The position numbers and the translations under genes are program-made. DNA of 32,301 bases from Niabella sp. (GTDB lineage Bacteria; Bacteroidota; Bacteroidia; Chitinophagales; Chitinophagaceae). The stretch spans positions 1 to 32,301 of the forward strand of contig JAPUDO010000131.1 in NCBI GenBank assembly GCA_027493055.1. Reading direction: 5' to 3'. Of the stretch, positions 11,116 through 27,813 are shown one piece after another. Under the pieces are notes generated by a model that was not told the DNA's origin, ran no database searches, and saw only the letters and a program-made list of their open reading frames with translations. The first letter of the stretch is position 1; each line of letters starts with the position of its first letter.

Positions 11116-14100
11116 TTATTTAACCGTTACTCTCACCCCTTCGCTATGGCTCGAAAACTCCGGCGCATACATACATTGAATGCTTGTAATGCCATTGCTG
11201 TAATTTCCTGGTAATTGCGCAAATAATGCGTATTCAAAAACATAAGTACCCTTGCGCAGGTAATTAAAGAAGAAATTAGTGCTGGCATCTTTAGTGCTCT
11301 CATAGTATCCCAGTCCGCCCTGCCATTTGTACTGGCTGAGGACATTCACAGGTTCAAAGGAAGCCGCGCGCATATCTTTCATGTGCACATACTCCATATC
11401 CCTGTCTGCACGCAGCTCAATACGCACTTTTATTTTATCGCCCACCTTTATAAGGTCTCCGTCATTAACTGGTTTTAAAACCGGGCCACGGTCGCTATTG
11501 GTTTCTATAAATAATTTTTTACTGAGTTGTAAAGGTGTTTCGGAAGAAGTTATTTTGTCAAGGTCTTCAAAATATTGCCAGTACACGCCGCCCCATGTAG
11601 GCAGGGTAGTAGTACGGTCAGGTTGCTGCACCGTTACTGCAATATTGCCCATTGCGGGGCGTACCTTATTGCCTTCGATCACTTTTTTGAAATAACCCGT
11701 ACCTGCCTCAGCCTTTCCCTGTTGTTCTCCAAAAGATGGGGTAACAATGGTCCCTCCTAAGCTAATGCTCACTTCCGGTGTAACAGATAACCACTCCGTG
11801 CCCCGAAGCAGCAACGCATAACAGGCTTCGGCAGTAGCCTTAGTGCTTTCCCAGTTATTGGTTTGTTTGTTCTTCAATAGCCAGGTTCTTAAATCGTCTG
11901 CCGTTTTAGCGTCTTTGCCTGCTTCTTCAAATGCCTCTATGATCAATGCCTGTCTTTCTATAGGAGCTTCGTACCACCACCAGCTGCGTATAGCGTCTTT
12001 ATAATACATACCCAGCTCTTCATTCCTGATAGCTGTTTCTTTAAGTGATTGTAAAATAGCTTTAGGCGTGGCCACATCATTGTTGCGATGGGCCGATAAA
12101 GCAATCATGGCCTGCATATACTTATTTTGTTGAGTCCATGTTTTTTTTGAGCGTTCTTTAAAATAGTTCACCGCCTTTTGCGCATTGTCTGAAGTTTTTA
12201 TCTGAGGAAAGAAGCTGCGCATATATAAGTATTGTATTACATAATAGGAGGGGGTATATTTTTCAAGATCCGTTTTATACTTTAACAGATGCTCGTACTC
12301 TTCTTTTATTTTAGCATCAAGATAAGGCATGGCATTCTGAACAATCCTGTTAAGATTTGCATCCTGCAAACCTGTTGTGGCCTTCAGCTTTTTCAGATGC
12401 CCTATTCCTGTTACTATATATTGGGTCATATACCGGTCATCAGGGCCGCCTTTGAACCATACAAAGCCTCCGTTCGGACTTTGTAACTGCCTCAGTTTTT
12501 CGTATGTCTTGGTAAGCGCTCCACTCATCCGCACCAGGTCGAACAGTAAAGCAAGATTTTTCTTTTGCTGCGCTTCGCTTTTAGCCGCTAATACCCAGGG
12601 CGTTTCTTCCAGCAGCACTGCTTTTAGCTCCTGGTTTTTTTGCAGGTTACTCAGCAAAGCTGCAGTATCTTCTGTTTTCCATTGCTCAAATACCTGTTTT
12701 ATTTTAGGTGAGCTGTTGGCAATGAGCGTAGCCAATGAATTAGCATAGTAGCGGTTCCATGTTTGCTCTGCGCATTCATAAGGATATTCCATCATATAGG
12801 GCAGCGCCTGTACGGCATACCAGGCTGGATTAGAAGTGTACTCTATCGTGAGCGATTGCGTGGTCAATGTTTCGCTTTGAGCACTGTTGATTAATTTATC
12901 GAACCTGAAATTTTTTGTGCCACTGCCACGCATATTCAGCGGAAGAGTTTCTGTAACCAGCATACGATTGGTCAATACCGGCAATATATTTTCTTCTCCG
13001 TCAGAAAGCGTCCCGTCTTTTGTTTGGGCTACTATACGCCATGTAAGGGCCCTGTTATACTGATAAGGTATTTCTAAGGGAAATTGTATAGCCTGACTTT
13101 GCCCTGCAGCGATGGTTAAGTACTGTTGGGGTACAGCATTCTTAAACCAGCCGTCCATAGGCTCATTGGTAGCCGCATCAAATAGTTGTAATGTAGCAAT
13201 GCCTGTAATTTCTTTGTCAGAAAGATTCACCACTTTGCTGCTGAGCGACATTTGATCTCCTTCCCGCAAAAAGCGTGGAGGATTAGGCTGCACCATTAAA
13301 TCCTTTTGTGTGATGATCTCTCTCTGGCTGTAACCAAAAGCCAGGTCTTTGGTGTGTGTCAGCGCCTGGAACTTCCACTTTGTCAATGCCTCAGGCATAG
13401 TGAATGAAAAGCTGATATTGCCGTCCTTATCAGTTTTCAGGTCGGGGAAGAAGAAGGCCGTTTCATTAAAATTAGTGCGTATCTGAGTAGCGGGACCTTG
13501 CTGTACTGGCATACTTGGAGCTGCTTCTGTTTTGCTTGTGTCAGCCGCTGCTTCGACAGGTGCAGGGGCGGCATCAGCCTGGATGGTTGCTGAGGCTGCT
13601 GAAATCGCCTGTCTTTTTTGGGTGAATACCACCGCTTCATTCATTACCTCGCCTTCGCTGGCTACACCTCTTATCATAATGCCCGGGGCTCTTCCTGCTA
13701 AGCCAATGGGGCCACTCCATGCATTGTTTTGATAAATCAGCTGATCATATATCTTTTCAAAGCTTTGATAGTCTGTTTTAGTGTTATTAAGCAGAATAGA
13801 AGACGCCCCTGAAAAATTATTATGTGCGTTCCATACCGTACCGCTATAAACGTTACTCCATATATAAGGGCTGTTCCATTGGTGGGGCTGAAACTGGTCT
13901 AACGATGCATCATACATGCCGGCCAGCATTTCAGCAGCTACTTTTTCTTTTTTATAGCCCGATATTTTTACTGTCCATTTTTCTTCTGCTCCGGGCAAGG
14001 TTTTATCGCGGAAGCTGCTGTACTCTATGTTCAGTTGCTTATTGGTCCAGGGTACGGAAATGGTTTGGTTTTGCTGGAAAACGCGGTTATGTTTTACAAA

Positions 14101-17100
14101 TACAAAGCTGTTATTATATCCGCCCCGATCTGCTTCTGTTGCTGTAAATGTAATGCTGAGGGGTTTGTTTTGATGTAACTGATAGTAAGCGTATGCTTTG
14201 CCCTCTTTATCTGTTTGCTGGATTAAGAATACATTTTCCGCAGCGCTACTGATCTCTGCTTTTGTTTTTTCCCCGGGCTCTATGGGCTGAGGGGCAACAC
14301 TGTAAACATATTGAGGATAAGAGGGGCCTGATTTACCGGCATTGAATAATTCGATGTATTGAACATCTTTAACAACCTGGTTATCTTTATCCCTGGTTTC
14401 AATCTCCACTGTATAATACCCGGGAGTAAAGCTGGTTGGCTGCAATATAAATTTTCCGGTTGAATCTGTATCGCCATCCTGTTTTAAAACAACGCCTCCT
14501 TTTTCCCAGGTTTTAGGATCATCTTCATCCTTATAAATATCATAAGGGAAGTAGCGGATGTATTCTTCTTTGCTTAAAATAAACTGATCGGGCTTCTCCC
14601 AGTAACGCGGGCGCAGTAAACGCTCTTCGGGTTTTAGCCGGGTGATGGTGATATTGATATTGGCTTTCTCAAACGCACCGGACATATTCTCCGTACGGGC
14701 ATATATTTTGTGAAGGCTGTCAGTAGCTAACCTGTCTGCAATCTTTACTTTTAAAAGAAGGGATTTATAGCCGGCAGATACCAACTGGCTGGAGCTCCTG
14801 GTTTCGCCATTAATATCGGTTACATCTGCATAGATCCTGTAATCAAAAACCGGGTCCGATTTGATACTGAGCGATGCATCAGGGATAGCTTTAAAGGTGA
14901 TATCAAAGGTTCCATCGGCCCTGCTTGCTGCTTCACCATGAGTTATTTCCATGGCTTCGCTGCGCGGATAATAGCCTCTCCAAAACAGCCAGGGATAAGG
15001 AAAACGGGCCTCGCGTACTACACGGTATTTTACAGTAGCACCATCTATATTATTTCCTGCATAAGCTTTTGCAAACCCGGTGACTTTTACTTCTTCATTA
15101 ACCTTATAAGCGCCTTTTACCGGCTCAAAATCCACATAAAATTTAGGGCGCTTGTATTCTTCTACCCTGATGGAAGCATAACCGGCATTATCGGATGTAC
15201 GCAAAGTATATACACCATTTAAACCCGATTGCGGCAGTGCAAACTTTCCGCTGAAAGATCCGTATTCGTTGCTCACTACCTGCACATCGCTGACTTTTTG
15301 ATGATTGGCATCGTATAATGCTAATGAGGTTTTATAGTTTTCATAAACGGTAGCTTTTTTGCCGTCATTTCTTTTGCTTACTGCAATGCCTTTAAAGTGG
15401 AGCGTTTGACCGGGCCGGTATATGCTCCTGTCAGTAAACATAAAAACCGTGGTCCGGAATTTTGTATTGTTGTCAATGTTCAGGTTGTTGTGGTAGTAAT
15501 AGGTTTCATCGTCAACAAAGAGCTGATCGTTCTTATACCTGATATCAAATAATAAGGCATTATTGCCCCGCTCTTGTGCTTTGGCAGAAGAAGCGCTTAA
15601 TTTGAAATAGCCGTTTTTATCACTGGTGTAACTATCAGATTTTTGCTTTGTATAAGCTGAAGTTTTATAATCGTAGGTCTTTTTGTAAACCTGCACTGTA
15701 GCGTTAGCCAGCGGATGTCCTGTATTACGATGCAAAACAAAGAAGTCTTCATTATTTTGTACAAAGCTGATATTGGATAGGTAAGTAAGCTGTGCAGCCA
15801 GTATATTATTATTAATGCCAAAATCTCCGTTAGCTGATACAAATAAAAAGTATTCCCCGGCAGGCAGAGGACCTATTTTAATTTCAGTTGTATGAGATTG
15901 CAAGTCTGTATTTGCCGGAAGCTCTTGCTGCCAGCTCTTTACCGTTTTTGCAGCTGCCAGGACTATCCAGTTCTTATGATCTCCCTGGTCGTTTTGCATA
16001 GCTTTCTTAAGTGCTTCTGTTGCAGGTATGGCACGCAGGTAAACCCTGCTGATGTTTTTAAAATTTACTAACATCCTGAAGGGTTGCTCCGGCAGGTTTA
16101 CTTTTTCTGTTGTAAAAGAGAAATAGGGCTGCAATAACTGCTGGTTCAGGTTATAGGCATTAGCCCATCCTTCGCTTTTCTCTTTCTGTTCAAGAATTTT
16201 ATCAGTTATTTCTTTTGCTTTTAGCAGCTCGTAACGGTTAGCTGTATCTGCATGGGCGTTATATTCATTTCCTTTTTGCTGATGCAGCAAAGCCATAAGG
16301 TATTGGGCCTGGGCGGTAGCGGGTATGTTGCCGTATTTGGAAACAATATGCTGCAGAGCGATATAGTAGAGAAGGTCTTTATCCTCCATTCCTGTAATAG
16401 TTTTAGCAGCAGCGGAAGGTTTAAAATTTTTACTTTTTGATGTAATGACCACTACGCCATTTACTCCGCGCGAACCATAAAGAGCAGTAGCAGAAGCGTC
16501 TTTCAAAATGCTGATTTCCTGTATTTCTTCCGGCGTTATTACATTTAAGCCGGTGGCAATATTTCCATCTATAATTATCAGGGGTCCTGTTACCGTGTTA
16601 CTAAATACTATTTTAGAATTTACATATTGGAGGCGGGCCAGGTCAACATCTATTAATGCGTCCGGCCGGGTATCGTTCAAATGAAAGCGGATCAGATCCT
16701 GGTAAATAAGCAGCGCTTTGTGTTGCAGCGATAGAGAATCCTTTGTTTTAAACGAAGCGTTTACAAATTCCTCTGCAGGGCTAAGCGCTTTTGTATCGCT
16801 GATCTCAAAGCTGGATGCGGCTTTGGTGATATTCCGCTCATCGTTTTTGAAGTAATTCAGTGCGTGATGGGCTAAGATATCATAAAGGGTAGGTCGCAGG
16901 TAACGCACATTCCCCTTTTCAATCAGGGCATCGTAGTCGGCCAGTTTCACCTGCTGTAACAGGCGGGGGTTTTGGATGGAAAGCAGGTACAGCTCGCTGA
17001 TCTTTTTATGAAAGTCATCTGTTGTCCAGGTGGCAATATCTTCTTTATTAAAATCAACAGTATTGGTTCTGCCATACAGTTTATACCTGTTGACGGCAAA

Positions 17101-17460
17101 ATACTGATAATATAACCCTGCCAGGTAGCTGTTTAACAAAGAAGTGACCGGCTCTTTGCTGGTCTGCCGCTCTTTTTCTATTTCTTTAATGCGTAGCGCA
17201 AAATTTTCCTCACGGTTTTCCTGCTGCAGCTGGGTAATATATACCAGGGCTTTTACTATCTGTGCGTCCTGCTTTTCTGCCTTTGCAGTAGTATAAATTT
17301 TTTTAACTGCTTCAAGTGCCGAAGCAGGTAAGCCTTTGCTGATATGGTCTTCCACTGCTTTCCATTCCTGCCCGTAATTTTTTATTATTTGTGCGCCTGA
17401 TTGCATAGCTAATCCTGTTGTGCAGATGACTGTTAGTATAAATACCCTGAAAATTTTCAT
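11116..17460 (-). CDS. Alpha-2-macroglobulin-like protein with SusC plug-like segments
   Basis: A 2114-aa protein with a signal peptide (1-24, ending SGAQ). It is a bacterial alpha-2-macroglobulin, a periplasmic or surface protease trap. The MG2 domain includes FTDRSIYRPGQTLHFKGI (about 680). The A2M domain includes NETAFFFPDL and KWKFQALTHTKD (about 1330-1380). The thioester motif CAEQ is C1563-Q1566, inside YPYECAEQTWNRYY, followed by a helical thioester domain and a C-terminal receptor-like domain. Odd features are residues 292-345 (IIIDGN..., ILKDASATALYGSRGVNGVV), which match the plug of SusC-type TonB receptors, and a second fragment near 1250-1275 (GLAGRAPGIMIRGVAS) like the next plug segment. 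The frame is open throughout, so this is not a frameshifted fusion. No pbpC neighbour is present. Confidence 0.9.
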   Translation of the reverse strand: MKIFRVFILTVICTTGLAMQSGAQIIKNYGQEWKAVEDHISKGLPASALEAVKKIYTTAKAEKQDAQIVKALVYITQLQQENREENFALRIKEIEKERQTSKEPVTSLLNSYLAGLYYQYFAVNRYKLYGRTNTVDFNKEDIATWTTDDFHKKISELYLLSIQNPRLLQQVKLADYDALIEKGNVRYLRPTLYDILAHHALNYFKNDERNITKAASSFEISDTKALSPAEEFVNASFKTKDSLSLQHKALLIYQDLIRFHLNDTRPDALIDVDLARLQYVNSKIVFSNTVTGPLIIIDGNIATGLNVITPEEIQEISILKDASATALYGSRGVNGVVVITSKSKNFKPSAAAKTITGMEDKDLLYYIALQHIVSKYGNIPATAQAQYLMALLHQQKGNEYNAHADTANRYELLKAKEITDKILEQKEKSEGWANAYNLNQQLLQPYFSFTTEKVNLPEQPFRMLVNFKNISRVYLRAIPATEALKKAMQNDQGDHKNWIVLAAAKTVKSWQQELPANTDLQSHTTEIKIGPLPAGEYFLFVSANGDFGINNNILAAQLTYLSNISFVQNNEDFFVLHRNTGHPLANATVQVYKKTYDYKTSAYTKQKSDSYTSDKNGYFKLSASSAKAQERGNNALLFDIRYKNDQLFVDDETYYYHNNLNIDNNTKFRTTVFMFTDRSIYRPGQTLHFKGIAVSKRNDGKKATVYENYKTSLALYDANHQKVSDVQVVSNEYGSFSGKFALPQSGLNGVYTLRTSDNAGYASIRVEEYKRPKFYVDFEPVKGAYKVNEEVKVTGFAKAYAGNNIDGATVKYRVVREARFPYPWLFWRGYYPRSEAMEITHGEAASRADGTFDITFKAIPDASLSIKSDPVFDYRIYADVTDINGETRSSSQLVSAGYKSLLLKVKIADRLATDSLHKIYARTENMSGAFEKANINITITRLKPEERLLRPRYWEKPDQFILSKEEYIRYFPYDIYKDEDDPKTWEKGGVVLKQDGDTDSTGKFILQPTSFTPGYYTVEIETRDKDNQVVKDVQYIELFNAGKSGPSYPQYVYSVAPQPIEPGEKTKAEISSAAENVFLIQQTDKEGKAYAYYQLHQNKPLSITFTATEADRGGYNNSFVFVKHNRVFQQNQTISVPWTNKQLNIEYSSFRDKTLPGAEEKWTVKISGYKKEKVAAEMLAGMYDASLDQFQPHQWNSPYIWSNVYSGTVWNAHNNFSGASSILLNNTKTDYQSFEKIYDQLIYQNNAWSGPIGLAGRAPGIMIRGVASEGEVMNEAVVFTQKRQAISAASATIQADAAPAPVEAAADTSKTEAAPSMPVQQGPATQIRTNFNETAFFFPDLKTDKDGNISFSFTMPEALTKWKFQALTHTKDLAFGYSQREIITQKDLMVQPNPPRFLREGDQMSLSSKVVNLSDKEITGIATLQLFDAATNEPMDGWFKNAVPQQYLTIAAGQSQAIQFPLEIPYQYNRALTWRIVAQTKDGTLSDGEENILPVLTNRMLVTETLPLNMRGSGTKNFRFDKLINSAQSETLTTQSLTIEYTSNPAWYAVQALPYMMEYPYECAEQTWNRYYANSLATLIANSSPKIKQVFEQWKTEDTAALLSNLQKNQELKAVLLEETPWVLAAKSEAQQKKNLALLFDLVRMSGALTKTYEKLRQLQSPNGGFVWFKGGPDDRYMTQYIVTGIGHLKKLKATTGLQDANLNRIVQNAMPYLDAKIKEEYEHLLKYKTDLEKYTPSYYVIQYLYMRSFFPQIKTSDNAQKAVNYFKERSKKTWTQQNKYMQAMIALSAHRNNDVATPKAILQSLKETAIRNEELGMYYKDAIRSWWWYEAPIERQALIIEAFEEAGKDAKTADDLRTWLLKNKQTNNWESTKATAEACYALLLRGTEWLSVTPEVSISLGGTIVTPSFGEQQGKAEAGTGYFKKVIEGNKVRPAMGNIAVTVQQPDRTTTLPTWGGVYWQYFEDLDKITSSETPLQLSKKLFIETNSDRGPVLKPVNDGDLIKVGDKIKVRIELRADRDMEYVHMKDMRAASFEPVNVLSQYKWQGGLGYYESTKDASTNFFFNYLRKGTYVFEYALFAQLPGNYSNGITSIQCMYAPEFSSHSEGVRVTVK

Positions 17461-20675: not shown

Positions 20676-21338
20676 CTATCTGGCAAATTTCATTTCAGGT
20701 ATGTCCCCGTTTACAATTAACCGTCCTTCTGTTACTTTTTTGATTTCCTCCACGCTCACTCCAGAGGCACGTTCCAACAAGACAAAACCTTCATCCGTAA
20801 CGTCTATAACAGCAAGGTCTGTAACTATTTTTTTTACACAGCAAACCCCGGTAAGTGGCAGGGAGCATTCTTTTAAAAGCTTGGCCTGACCGTCTTTACT
20901 GCTATGTTGCATAGCTACAATGATGTTTTTTGCAGAGGCCACCAGGTCCATTGCTCCGCCCATGCCTTTCACCATCTTGCCTGGAATTTTCCAGCTGGCA
21001 ATATCGCCTTTTTCACTTACCTCAAAAGCGCCCAGAACGGTAAGGTCTACATGGCCGCCGCGGATCATGGCAAAAGAAGTAGCCGAATCAAAAAATGCTC
21101 CGCCAGGGTTCAGGGTTACTGTTTGTTTACCGGCATTGATCAGATCGGCATCAGCATTTCCTTTTTCGGGGAAAGGCCCCATACCCAGCATCCCGTTCTC
21201 AGATTGCAGGATCACTTCTATTCCTTCAGGGATATAATTAGCTACAAGAGTAGGAATGCCAATACCCAGGTTTACATAGTATCCGTCTTTTAGCTCCTGT
21301 GCAATACGTTGCGCTATTTGTTCTTTTGTGAGGCTCAT
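20676..21338 (-). CDS. scoB: 3-oxoacid CoA-transferase subunit B
   Basis: A 220-aa beta subunit of succinyl-CoA:3-oxoacid CoA transferase. The catalytic glutamate is E47 in the family motif SENGMLGMG (46-54). GIGIPTLVA (25-33), NPGGAFFDSA and the internal RGGHVDLTVLGAFEV block are typical. With ScoA it transfers CoA from succinyl-CoA to acetoacetate, giving acetoacetyl-CoA. This fits the end of leucine breakdown encoded upstream in the same cluster. It is the last gene of the cluster, separated from scoA by the S23 gene and two repeat arrays. An A-rich leader (AAACA before ATG) supports the start. Confidence 0.93.
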   Translation of the reverse strand: MSLTKEQIAQRIAQELKDGYYVNLGIGIPTLVANYIPEGIEVILQSENGMLGMGPFPEKGNADADLINAGKQTVTLNPGGAFFDSATSFAMIRGGHVDLTVLGAFEVSEKGDIASWKIPGKMVKGMGGAMDLVASAKNIIVAMQHSSKDGQAKLLKECSLPLTGVCCVKKIVTDLAVIDVTDEGFVLLERASGVSVEEIKKVTEGRLIVNGDIPEMKFAR

Positions 21339-21352
21339 TGTTTGTTTTTAGT

Positions 21353-21380
21353 GAATAGTAAATAGGGAGTAGCCAGTAGG
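21353..21380 (+). repeat. Heptad array RARTAGN, left of the S23 gene
   Basis: Four 7-bp units read on the plus strand: gaatagt, aaatagg, gagtagc, cagtagg. The array starts 14 bp before the scoB start codon on the template side and ends 2 bp from the S23 stop. Bases 21360-21380 form an inverted repeat (18 of 21) with 21825-21845 on the other side of the S23 gene. Confidence 0.72.
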
Positions 21381-21382
21381 GT

Positions 21383-21745
21383 TTATTTGTTTTCTAAGTT
21401 GCTGATCATTTTGCTTAACATTTTGAACACGGATTCAAGATATGCTTCCAGTTTTGGAATTTCATTCTTTTTTAAATACTCAAGAATTAAAGAGATTTCA
21501 ATCTGGGTATCAACTTCAACCAGCGAGCTCCTGGATATTTCATAAAATCTTTTCTTTTCAGCCTTTGACTTCCTTGCCGACCCTTCTGCCAGGTTGCTGC
21601 AAACAGAAATTGCTGCCCGCCGAAGCTGGCTAACCAGCACAAACTGTTCTTCTTTGGGGTATGTCTTTGTATGTTGATAGACTTCTTTTACAAGCTCTAT
21701 GGAGAACTGATATACCTTTAAATTTTTGTGAGATAGTTGCAACAT
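21383..21745 (-). CDS. S23-type four-helix-bundle protein
   Basis: A 120-aa all-helical protein of the family first named for ORFs inside 23S rRNA intervening sequences and related to Avd of diversity-generating retroelements. Typical parts are HKNLKVYQFSIELVKEVY (6-23), EEQFVLVSQLRRAAISVCSN (32-51), LAEGSARKS (52-60) and KRFYEISRSSLVEVDTQIE (65-83). Avd forms a basic pentamer that binds nucleic acid and a reverse transcriptase; the role of free-standing family members is unknown. No rRNA or reverse transcriptase is in the window. The gene interrupts the scoA-scoB pair and is bracketed by facing arrays of one 7-bp word, suggesting that gene and arrays arrived or act together. Confidence 0.9.
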   Translation of the reverse strand: MLQLSHKNLKVYQFSIELVKEVYQHTKTYPKEEQFVLVSQLRRAAISVCSNLAEGSARKSKAEKKRFYEISRSSLVEVDTQIEISLILEYLKKNEIPKLEAYLESVFKMLSKMISNLENK

Positions 21746-21782
21746 GTTTTACGATTTTATATTTGGTGTTTTTAAATGCCTT

Positions 21783-21873
21783 GTTATTTCCTCCCGGCTA
21801 TTTCCAACTAGCTACTTTCTATTTCCTACTTCCTACTCCCTATTCTCTACTCCCAACTTGCTATTTCCTATTT
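21783..21873 (-). repeat. Heptad array RARTAGN, right of the S23 gene
   Basis: On the minus strand, 11 consecutive clear 7-bp units from 21873 down to 21797: aaatagg, aaatagc, aagttgg, gagtaga, gaatagg, gagtagg, aagtagg, aaataga, aagtagc, tagttgg, aaatagc. Two degenerate units follow, to 21783. The phase never slips. The array faces the one at 21353-21380 and begins 5 bp after the scoA stop codon. Confidence 0.8.
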
Positions 21874-21878
21874 ACCAA

Positions 21879-22568
21879 TTAACTTTCCGTCAGCTTCTCA
21901 ATCCTTTTCTCATAATTCTTTCCTTCAAAGATCCTTTGCACAAAAATACCCGGTGTATGTATCTGCGCCGGGTCGAGGCTTCCTGCAGGAACCAGCTCTT
22001 CTACTTCAGCAATCGTGATCTTTCCTGCCATAGCCATGGGCTGGTTGAAGTTATTGGCTGTTTTTCGGTAAATAAGATTGCCCTGCGTATCTCCTTTCCA
22101 TGCTTTGATGATGGCAAAATCGCCGGTAATGGCATATTCCAGTAAATGAGGCTTCCCGTTAAATTCGCGCACTTCTTTTCCTTCTGCAGCTTCGGTACTA
22201 TAGCCCGCCGGTACATAAAATGCCGGGATACCTGCCCCGCCTGCCCGGCAGCGCTCCGCTAATGTGCCCTGCGGTACCAGCTCTACCTCTAATTCACCGG
22301 CTAAAAGCTGCCGTTCAAATTCAGCATTTTCGCCAACATAGGAGGAGATCATTTTTTTAATTTGTCTTTGTTGTAATAGCAGGCCCAGTCCAAAATCATC
22401 CACACCTGCATTATTACTTACGCATGTGAGATTTTTTATGCCACTCTCCACCAATGCGGTAATGCTGTTTTCAGGAATGCCGCAAAGCCCGAAACCTCCC
22501 AGCAGGAGCGTCATGCCATCTGTAATGCCGCTGATGGCCTCTTTTGCGCTTGATACAACTTTGTTCAT
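21879..22568 (-). CDS. scoA: 3-oxoacid CoA-transferase subunit A
   Basis: A 229-aa alpha subunit of succinyl-CoA:3-oxoacid CoA transferase. The glycine-rich signature [11 protein letters not shown] is at 24-34. [15 protein letters not shown] (51-65), SYVGENAEF and the FYVPAGYST block are typical of ScoA/AtoD. It works as a heteromer with ScoB to activate acetoacetate. It begins 24 bp after the HMG-CoA lyase gene, whose acetoacetate product it uses. The normal scoA-scoB adjacency is broken here by 540 bp holding the S23 gene and repeats. Confidence 0.93.
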
Positions 22569-23468: not shown

Positions 23469-23481
23469 TGTTTATATTGTT

Positions 23482-23576
23482 TAATAGTAGGTAGGAAATA
23501 GTTAGTAGTAAGTAGGAAAGGCAATTCCCTGTTTCCCACTTGCTATATTCTACTTGCTGTTTCTATATTCCTATCT
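23482..23576. repeat. Facing pair of RARTAGN heptad arrays without a gene
   Basis: On the plus strand, 23482-23516 holds five units: taatagt, aggtagg, aaatagt, tagtagt, aagtagg. On the minus strand, 23576-23528 holds seven units: agatagg, aatatag, aaacagc, aagtaga, atatagc, aagtggg, aaacagg. The two are in register: AAGTAGGAAA (23510-23519) pairs with TTTCCCACTT (23532-23541) around a 12-nt loop. The second array runs over the stop codon and last codons of the acyl-CoA dehydrogenase gene. Confidence 0.72.
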
Positions 23577-27601: not shown

Positions 27602-27659
27602 GATTCATTGTTGTTTAAAGCTCATGGTTTAGGGTTAATAGAAAATTGTCCTGTCAATG

Positions 27660-27799
27660 TTCGTACATCGTACACCGTACATCTGACATAAGATTAATAA
27701 GCACCTTTTTTAACACTCAATGCGCAATGTTCTATAATCAATGCTCAGTGCTGTTTACCCATTTGTTGTATATCTTACATCGTACACCGTACATCGTAC
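27660..27799 (+). repeat. Heptad arrays with ATCGTAC and TGCNCAA words
   Basis: Three short arrays lie in one 212-bp gap. 27660-27687 reads ttcgtac, atcgtac, accgtac, atctgac. 27714-27748 reads cactcaa, tgcgcaa, tgttcta, taatcaa, tgctcag. 27772-27799 reads atcttac, atcgtac, accgtac, atcgtac. The ATCGTAC word is the same as at 335-362, some 27 kb away. The two ATCGTAC arrays point the same way, unlike the facing RARTAGN arrays. Confidence 0.7.
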
Positions 27800-27813
27800 A
27801 TGATATAAACATC

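Follow-up and report, generated by a model that had tools for sequence, protein, structure and literature searches.

The system closest to the one described here is the intervening sequence (IVS) of 23S rRNA, in which a gene of the S23 (four helix bundle) family lies in a hairpin that is excised from the 23S rRNA (PMC4990558). The stem of the Coxiella IVS is 28 bp long with one mismatch and a bulge, and RNase III cuts it in vitro. Tandem GACAGAT heptamers lie just before the S23 open reading frame and vary in copy number among strains; the cut falls at the start of the first of these repeats, and the site in 23S rRNA is helix 45. In the authors' view the RNA matters more than the protein (PMC4990558).

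Heptamers have also been described on their own. GGGAATC in Xanthomonas and GGGGA(C/T)T in Nostoc form intergenic repeats, mostly between codirectional genes, and facing pairs number 70 and 75 in two Xanthomonas genomes and are few in Nostoc (PMC4692102). They were treated as G-quadruplex repeats, and neither S23 nor a helix bundle appears in the main text of that paper. TAACTGA direct repeats are known from Beggiatoaceae, Cyanobacteria and five Bacteroidetes, where the arrays end just before start codons and a post-transcriptional regulatory role was proposed for them (PMC4679880). These are direct repeats of one word, and the available text of the paper mentions S23 zero times. Two further systems have a bearing on the locus. 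The Avd protein of diversity-generating retroelements (DGRs) belongs to a family related to S23. REP/REPIN sequences with their RAYT, and MITEs, occur as many gene-less palindromic copies in genomes that carry the gene-bearing element. Among open-licence papers we found none that links S23 outside rRNA to heptad arrays, and none that gives a role to S23 genes outside rRNA.

The element between scoA and scoB

The window, that is the whole stretch of 32,301 nucleotides which was analysed, is one contig of the 5.75 Mb genome of Niabella sp. Its features of interest are the following.

21879..22568, minus strand: scoA, 3-oxoacid CoA-transferase subunit A, the upstream operon gene (TIGR02429, 7.9e-80)
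21339..21878, minus strand: the whole element, which is the entire scoA-scoB intergenic stretch of 540 bp
21825..21852, minus strand: 5' arm, purine-rich heptads on the S23 strand, pairing with 21353-21380; core of the array 21789-21873
21383..21745, minus strand: gene for an S23 / four helix bundle protein of 120 aa (PF05635, E 4.6e-34; TIGR02436, 1.8e-30)
21353..21380, minus strand: 3' arm, pyrimidine-rich, complement of the 5' arm; the predicted RNA fold pairs the arms around the open reading frame
20676..21338, minus strand: scoB, 3-oxoacid CoA-transferase subunit B, the downstream operon gene (TIGR02428, 1.5e-101)
23469..23562, minus strand: gene-less facing arrays of a RARTAGN-like word (by eye, and TRF at 23485-23515; missed by the stricter array scan)

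The three genes are on the same strand. Read along the coding strand, a purine-rich array (GAGTAGAGAATAGGGAGTAGG...) is followed by the S23 gene, the pyrimidine-rich complement and, 15 bp after the end of the 3' arm, the start of scoB; much of the gap outside the S23 gene consists of arrays. The best local alignment of the two flanks joins 21825-21852 with 21353-21380, and TRF reports tandem repeats of periods 7 and 21 at 21798-21870. The gene-less arrays at 23469..23562 sit between the next two genes of the scoA/scoB cluster.

The original prediction saw here a compact element with the S23 protein as its sole gene, bracketed by facing copies of RARTAGN, and this architecture is supported. The inverted repeat of 21360-21380 with the complement of 21825-21845 has 18 of 21 matches, as claimed, a value reached by none of 300 mononucleotide shuffles of both flanks. 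Exact copies are somewhat fewer. Instead of four plus-strand copies there are three exact ones in register (21353, 21360 and 21367) followed by CAGTAGG with one mismatch; instead of eleven or more minus-strand copies there are nine exact ones in a single phase, from 21873 down to 21803, and eleven in register when up to one mismatch to RARTAG is accepted.

Both structures predicted for the RNA, that of minimum energy and the centroid, pair the arms into a stem that encloses the S23 frame; the fold energy is only modestly low compared to shuffled sequences (z -1.65, 6 of 100 shuffles as good). A search of the window against Rfam gave no match. Among named proteins the S23 protein is closest to one from Niabella hibiscisoli (81% identity). 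A phage origin was considered and dropped, as the protein had no match in the phage collection.

As in the Coxiella IVS an S23 family gene lies within a hairpin of terminal inverted repeats and heptamers are present. The elements described here differ in that they sit in protein-coding operons and not in rRNA, that 7-nt arrays make up both arms, that there are many per genome with locus-specific words, and that the protein is under purifying selection. We file these operon-resident elements as a variant of the S23/IVS kind.

S23 genes and facing arrays in other genomes

The arm score compares the two flanks of a gene: the 150 bp on its left are aligned with the reverse-complemented 150 bp on its right, and the best alignment is scored. 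A locus passes if it scores above the 95th percentile of control genes. PF05635 has 20 matches in the Niabella sp. genome, which correspond to 18 genes (two genes have two matches each), and is present in 28 of 40 genomes of the family (0 to 20 matches each) and in 17 of 17 of the genus. The 58 distinct S23 genes from the source genome and the family were compared to 605 control genes, which include one S23 remnant (L084 9823-10035, score 27). The median scores were 29.5 and 16, respectively (p 3e-26), and 47 of the 58 genes pass. Direct instead of inverted flanking repeats show no excess at these 58 genes over the controls (p 0.14). When arms are swapped between the 58 loci the score drops to the control level, thus the two arms of a typical locus share a word that is particular to it. 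Such words are for example GGATGTT, GTTCATG, GCTATGA and GTTAGAC, occasionally an 8-nt word such as AATTTGAA. In the source genome 13 of 16 tested genes pass, the failures being L018, L008 (with an 8-nt word) and the fragment L015; one gene lacking flank (L010) and one broken gene (L016) were left out.

The same holds for a wider sample. One S23 protein used as query found 80 named loci; of the 79 that were testable 57 pass against 180 controls. Six genomes from outside Bacteroidota (Lyngbya, Campbellbacteria, Ignavibacteria, Scalindua, Zapsychrus and Neomarinimicrobiota) have 30 loci, 27 of them testable, and 22 of these exceed the threshold that the earlier control genes had set; six of the 27 also belong to the named set. 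The facing-array pattern thereby extends to Cyanobacteria, Patescibacteria and other phyla. On plasmids 7 of 12 S23 loci, chosen from 35 records with a match, pass, as do 17 of 132 swapped pairs. Failures number 11 of 58, 22 of 79, 5 of 27 and 5 of 12 loci in the four sets. The loci of the 58-gene and 79-locus sets, and those of the polarity count given below, are not all independent; counted by site, 60 of 74 sites have a locus scoring over 22. The link between S23 genes and heptad arrays, which the original prediction had put forward as its own inference, is confirmed and general.

S23 genes lie mostly between codirectional genes. With open-ended gene calls both neighbours are available for 156 of 158 S23 genes, the other two being at edges, and 137 of these lie in the sense and 10 in the antisense direction between codirectional genes, with 9 placed otherwise. 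This gives 147 of 156, to be compared with 662 codirectional gaps among 1011 in long stretches. From a sense S23 gene to its two neighbours the gaps have medians of 65 and 42 bp. Among the junctions that NCBIfam or Pfam matches could name are scoA/scoB, argC/argD, thyA/DHFR, hemF/hemB, ilvB/ilvN, gnd/zwf, sdhA/sdhB and leuC/leuD, further ones are MurD-like ligase/FtsW family and MoxR-like/DUF58, where the gene before DUF58, which has no NCBIfam match, is presumably MoxR-like. Two of these, argC/argD and MoxR-like/DUF58, are occupied by S23 in several genera. At leuC/leuD an S23 gene is found in Zapsychrus, a Cytophagales MAG and, when loci are grouped by BLAST, the genus member G053; the words differ, and any two of the three proteins are joined only by splits of at least 83 of 158 tips, so these look like independent insertions.

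S23 genes were observed within CRISPR-Cas operons of cyanobacterial plasmids at three loci (L373, L379 and L381), twice between cas6 and cas4 and once between cas10 and a Cmr3-family gene. One of the cas6/cas4 loci and the cas10 locus are among the plasmid loci that pass, together with an S23 gene lying antisense between nrdB and nrdA; the second cas6/cas4 locus, L379, fails. A location inside 23S rRNA in distant phyla was also considered and dropped, as none of eight S23 loci from other phyla had an LSU rRNA match.

Closely similar copies at unrelated loci, as expected of a mobile element, were found in the source genome, where three similar, broken S23 copies (L013, L017 and L016) share a similarity that stops inside AATTAAT arrays. 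The fixed terminal inverted repeats typical of a DNA transposon or MITE were not found, since the words differ by locus and swapped arms score as controls. No transposase was seen at S23 elements, nor, by eye, a target-site duplication, there being no empty site close enough to align. S23 elements differ from REP/REPIN-RAYT systems and MITEs in that S23 is not a known transposase and that the ends are arrays of changing words.

Words, polarity and co-variation of the arms

Ten junctions shared between genomes could be used to ask how well an arm matches its partner in the same genome compared to the arms of other genomes. At three of them the own arm is clearly better: junction 0 (35.3 vs 21.9, n 18, p 0.0002), junction 2 (35.2 vs 22.5, n 8, p 0.003) and junction 3 (34.8 vs 20.5, n 6, p 0.003). 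A fourth, junction 1, is marginal (29.9 vs 27.7, p 0.047). At junctions 4-9 the difference is not significant, and three of them slightly favour arms of different genomes. The S23 proteins of junctions 0 and 1 are not strict clades (the 18 members of junction 0 lie within a split of 49; for junction 1 the split is 24). Loci of this kind are a natural experiment in which matched repeats change their sequence while staying paired.

The arms have a polarity relative to the S23 gene. Clear arms are present at 106 of the 158 loci; G outnumbers C in the 5' arm of 94 of these, and C outnumbers G in 11; by site it is G-rich at 46 versus 9 of 56 sites. Control genes with weak arms give 39 versus 24. 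In the antisense insertions polarity follows the S23 gene in 9 of 10 cases, an argument weakened by a single junction that supplies six of the ten.

One arm per site (52 sites) folded at period 7 gives the motif R-G-T-T-n-n-n. Its score of 0.218 exceeds those of all 40 sets of permuted words (mean 0.156, maximum 0.179), and periods 5, 6, 8 and 9 fit the arms far worse. When the motif is trained on 32 sites the forward strand is preferred in 13 of 19 remaining sites. Words are shared by 45-76% of different-site pairs if the S23 identity is above 60% and by about 2% if it is below 40%; as both neighbours must match for two loci to count as one site, a few of these pairs (e.g. L150 with L247) are probably one site. 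The published heptamers are not far away: the Coxiella GACAGAT can be rotated to AGATGAC, which is close to the heptad seen at the present loci, and the reverse complement of TAACTGA rotates to AGTTATC, the word of S23 loci L146 and L147. With the Xanthomonas and Nostoc repeats S23 loci have in common that they carry 7-nt tandem arrays in intergenic DNA.

The protein is conserved as well. At six junctions the median dN/dS of S23 is 0.04-0.26, with 88 of 200 pairs usable (unsaturated), and this purifying selection implies that the protein matters too.

Origin of the elements and of gene-less arrays

The model we favour, with moderate confidence, is that of an operon-resident, IVS-like family of mobile elements which also seeds gene-less arrays. 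Architecture and similar copies at new sites rest on observation; that the elements are excised and spread is our inference. The element would consist of an array of purine-rich heptads, then the S23 gene, then a pyrimidine-rich array complementary to the first; placed between co-transcribed genes, it would span the whole distance from the stop codon of one to the start codon of the other. Transcribed as part of the polycistronic RNA, the two arrays could form a long stem whose loop contains the S23 frame, as in the IVS of 23S rRNA. RNase III of the host, or some nuclease like it, may cut the stem and thereby part the flanking messages; with the element leaving the mRNA in this way the insertion should cost the operon little. 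Against the model count the loci that fail the arm test, the frequent gene-less arrays, the modest fold energy and the junctions at which co-variation is marginal or not significant. The S23 protein may bind the heptads or the stem and help the element and the gene-less arrays to spread. Slippage in steps of 7 nt together with hairpin-templated copying from arm to arm would let the words drift while the arms stay matched, with or without selection for the stem; that slippage and hairpin-templated repair account for the joint change of the word in both arms is a guess.

A wider formulation can be put forward tentatively, and we hold it to be possible rather than probable. S23 proteins might drive a bacterium-wide writing and keeping of matched 7-nt arrays whose word drifts but whose period, motif and polarity are fixed; wherever S23 is present such arrays would arise and spread, whether or not they carry the gene. 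A single process of this kind would have produced the heptamers of Cyanobacteria and Xanthomonas, the TAACTGA repeats and the rRNA IVS alike; its unit length would be set and its sequence free, and no reverse transcriptase would take part.

The main alternative, which we consider possible but somewhat doubtful, is that slippage and the correction of palindromes give rise to the arrays as operon hairpins in their own right, and that S23 settles in their loops, like IVSs in 23S rRNA helices. Gene-less arrays are indeed many. They occupy 50 codirectional gaps without S23, of which 26 hold an inverted pair, with a polarity of 20:5; in the source genome the inverted pair is present in 4 of 22 array-bearing codirectional gaps, at least two of the four not being heptads. 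In the source genome arrays are almost exclusively in codirectional gaps, for G021 and G009 the fractions are 12 of 19 and 17 of 25. Two gene-less facing heptad elements were seen in G009 (L306, 2060-2368 and 15720-15916). Both contain one and the same longer palindrome around GAACGCAGATTTTCATGATT further inside, which may be a dispersed palindrome of separate origin that lies in the loop.

Genomes without S23 are, however, nearly free of arrays. For nine such genomes of the family 99.2 kb of intergenic DNA yielded 4 arrays of lag 7 and 3 of lag 8. Seven genomes with at least four PF05635 matches have 82 and 26, respectively, in 104.5 kb at a distance from S23 genes (the lag-7 densities differ with p 0.0006, kinship being ignored). 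Eight other lags give 13 arrays in the S23-free and 14 in the S23-bearing genomes; lag 7 stands out, together with 14 and, less so, 8. This link at the genome level is a correlation. The density in S23-bearing genomes ranges from 2.2 to 21.3 per 10 kb with no simple rise with copy number, taken as the count of PF05635 matches (the source genome was entered as 17, which leaves its rank as it is). The lowest of them, G029 (2.2), is below the S23-free G017 (2.9, two arrays in 7 kb), and G022, a genus member with one S23, is near background (1.6). Densities for the source genome come from stretches mostly chosen for S23, with the S23 neighbourhoods removed. The original prediction had named arrays without the gene, and the gene without arrays, as what would speak against the association; gene-less arrays turned out to be common, but in genomes with S23 at other loci, and nearly absent from those without S23.

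The scoA/scoB junction gives evidence in both directions. In the genus 14 of 17 genomes have scoA, and six carry S23 with related words at this junction (arrays judged by eye). G042 retains an S23 remnant, and in G041 same-word arrays are present and the S23 gene is gone, the alignment suggesting a deletion between copies of AATAGCAAG; this loss of the gene from same-word arrays argues against independent hairpins. In favour of them, six of the 14 have gene-less facing arrays of other words (by eye), and five of these six use the AATTTGAA word, which is also found at L008, the sdhA/sdhB locus of the source genome that fails the arm test. At MoxR-like/DUF58 16 of 17 loci in the genus are readable: two have S23, G022 and G053 have short gaps without arrays, and the remaining ones have gene-less stretches with varied short repeats (by eye). 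The polarity that follows S23 in nine of the ten antisense insertions, although six are one junction, and the word similarity that tracks S23 similarity across sites both point to S23 rather than to hairpins that arose without it.

A regulatory cassette appears unlikely; here the S23 protein would recognise the heptads of the operon in which it lies, either as mRNA or as DNA, and adjust the gene downstream or S23 itself. It would agree with the use of the same junctions in several genera, with the purifying selection on S23, with 3' arms ending near the next start codon and with the post-transcriptional role proposed for TAACTGA repeats (PMC4679880). The partner operons seen have, however, no common function, and the element and its word turn over within the genus. 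In the wider family, where 27 of 30 loci have the scoA/scoB pair, S23 is absent from 25 of the 27: two have S23, four or five have arrays only (by eye), 15 have gaps of 3-52 bp without arrays (by eye), and the rest have longer gaps or another gene.

The original prediction had suggested an element assisted by a reverse transcriptase, on the basis of the relation of S23 to Avd. The relation, although distant, is supported: all 17 aligned S23 proteins match PF05635, six of them match PF22296 (bAvd) and seven the NCBIfam Avd model. The S23 protein of the window reaches 26.3 bits against a cut-off of 80 and is not an Avd by that cut-off. Solved structures of the S23 family are 2rld and 2gsc, the latter being XCC0516, where we take XCC to stand for Xanthomonas campestris. 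RVT_1 (PF00078) has no match in the source genome, which speaks against the RT-assisted element there, and in the 40 family genomes it is found in 6 of 28 with S23 and 4 of 12 without, i.e. no commoner with S23. A DGR-like retroelement with its reverse transcriptase in trans is accordingly very improbable, and for the source genome this reading is largely refuted, as it would need an RT too divergent for PF00078. An artefact of chance or base composition in AT-rich intergenic DNA, which short, low-complexity words might bring to mind, is refuted by the control genes, the swapped partners and the distinctness of lag 7 from the eight other lags.

If S23 elements are what we propose they may tie together several repeat puzzles that have been described separately. 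The widespread S23 genes are given a context by the array link, that of a bracketed element inside operons, and the heptamer arrays of several phyla, so far explained separately and partially, gain a likely source. The IVS of 23S rRNA may represent the one branch, resident in rRNA, of a far larger family that resides in operons, and the question of its origin becomes testable.

The window has other stretches of short repeats. Positions 1-404, ahead of the first gene, are a dense patchwork of the heptad words AGTATCC, ATGTACG, GACAGTT, GGTTTAAA and AACCTGG, and by eye some of the outer words recur inverted on the far side as if the arrays were nested. At 27602-27813 two TCGTACA arrays in the same orientation (direct, not facing) flank a CAATGYT-like stretch. 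By far the longest open frame of the window, with 2114 aa, is found on the minus strand at 11116-17460.
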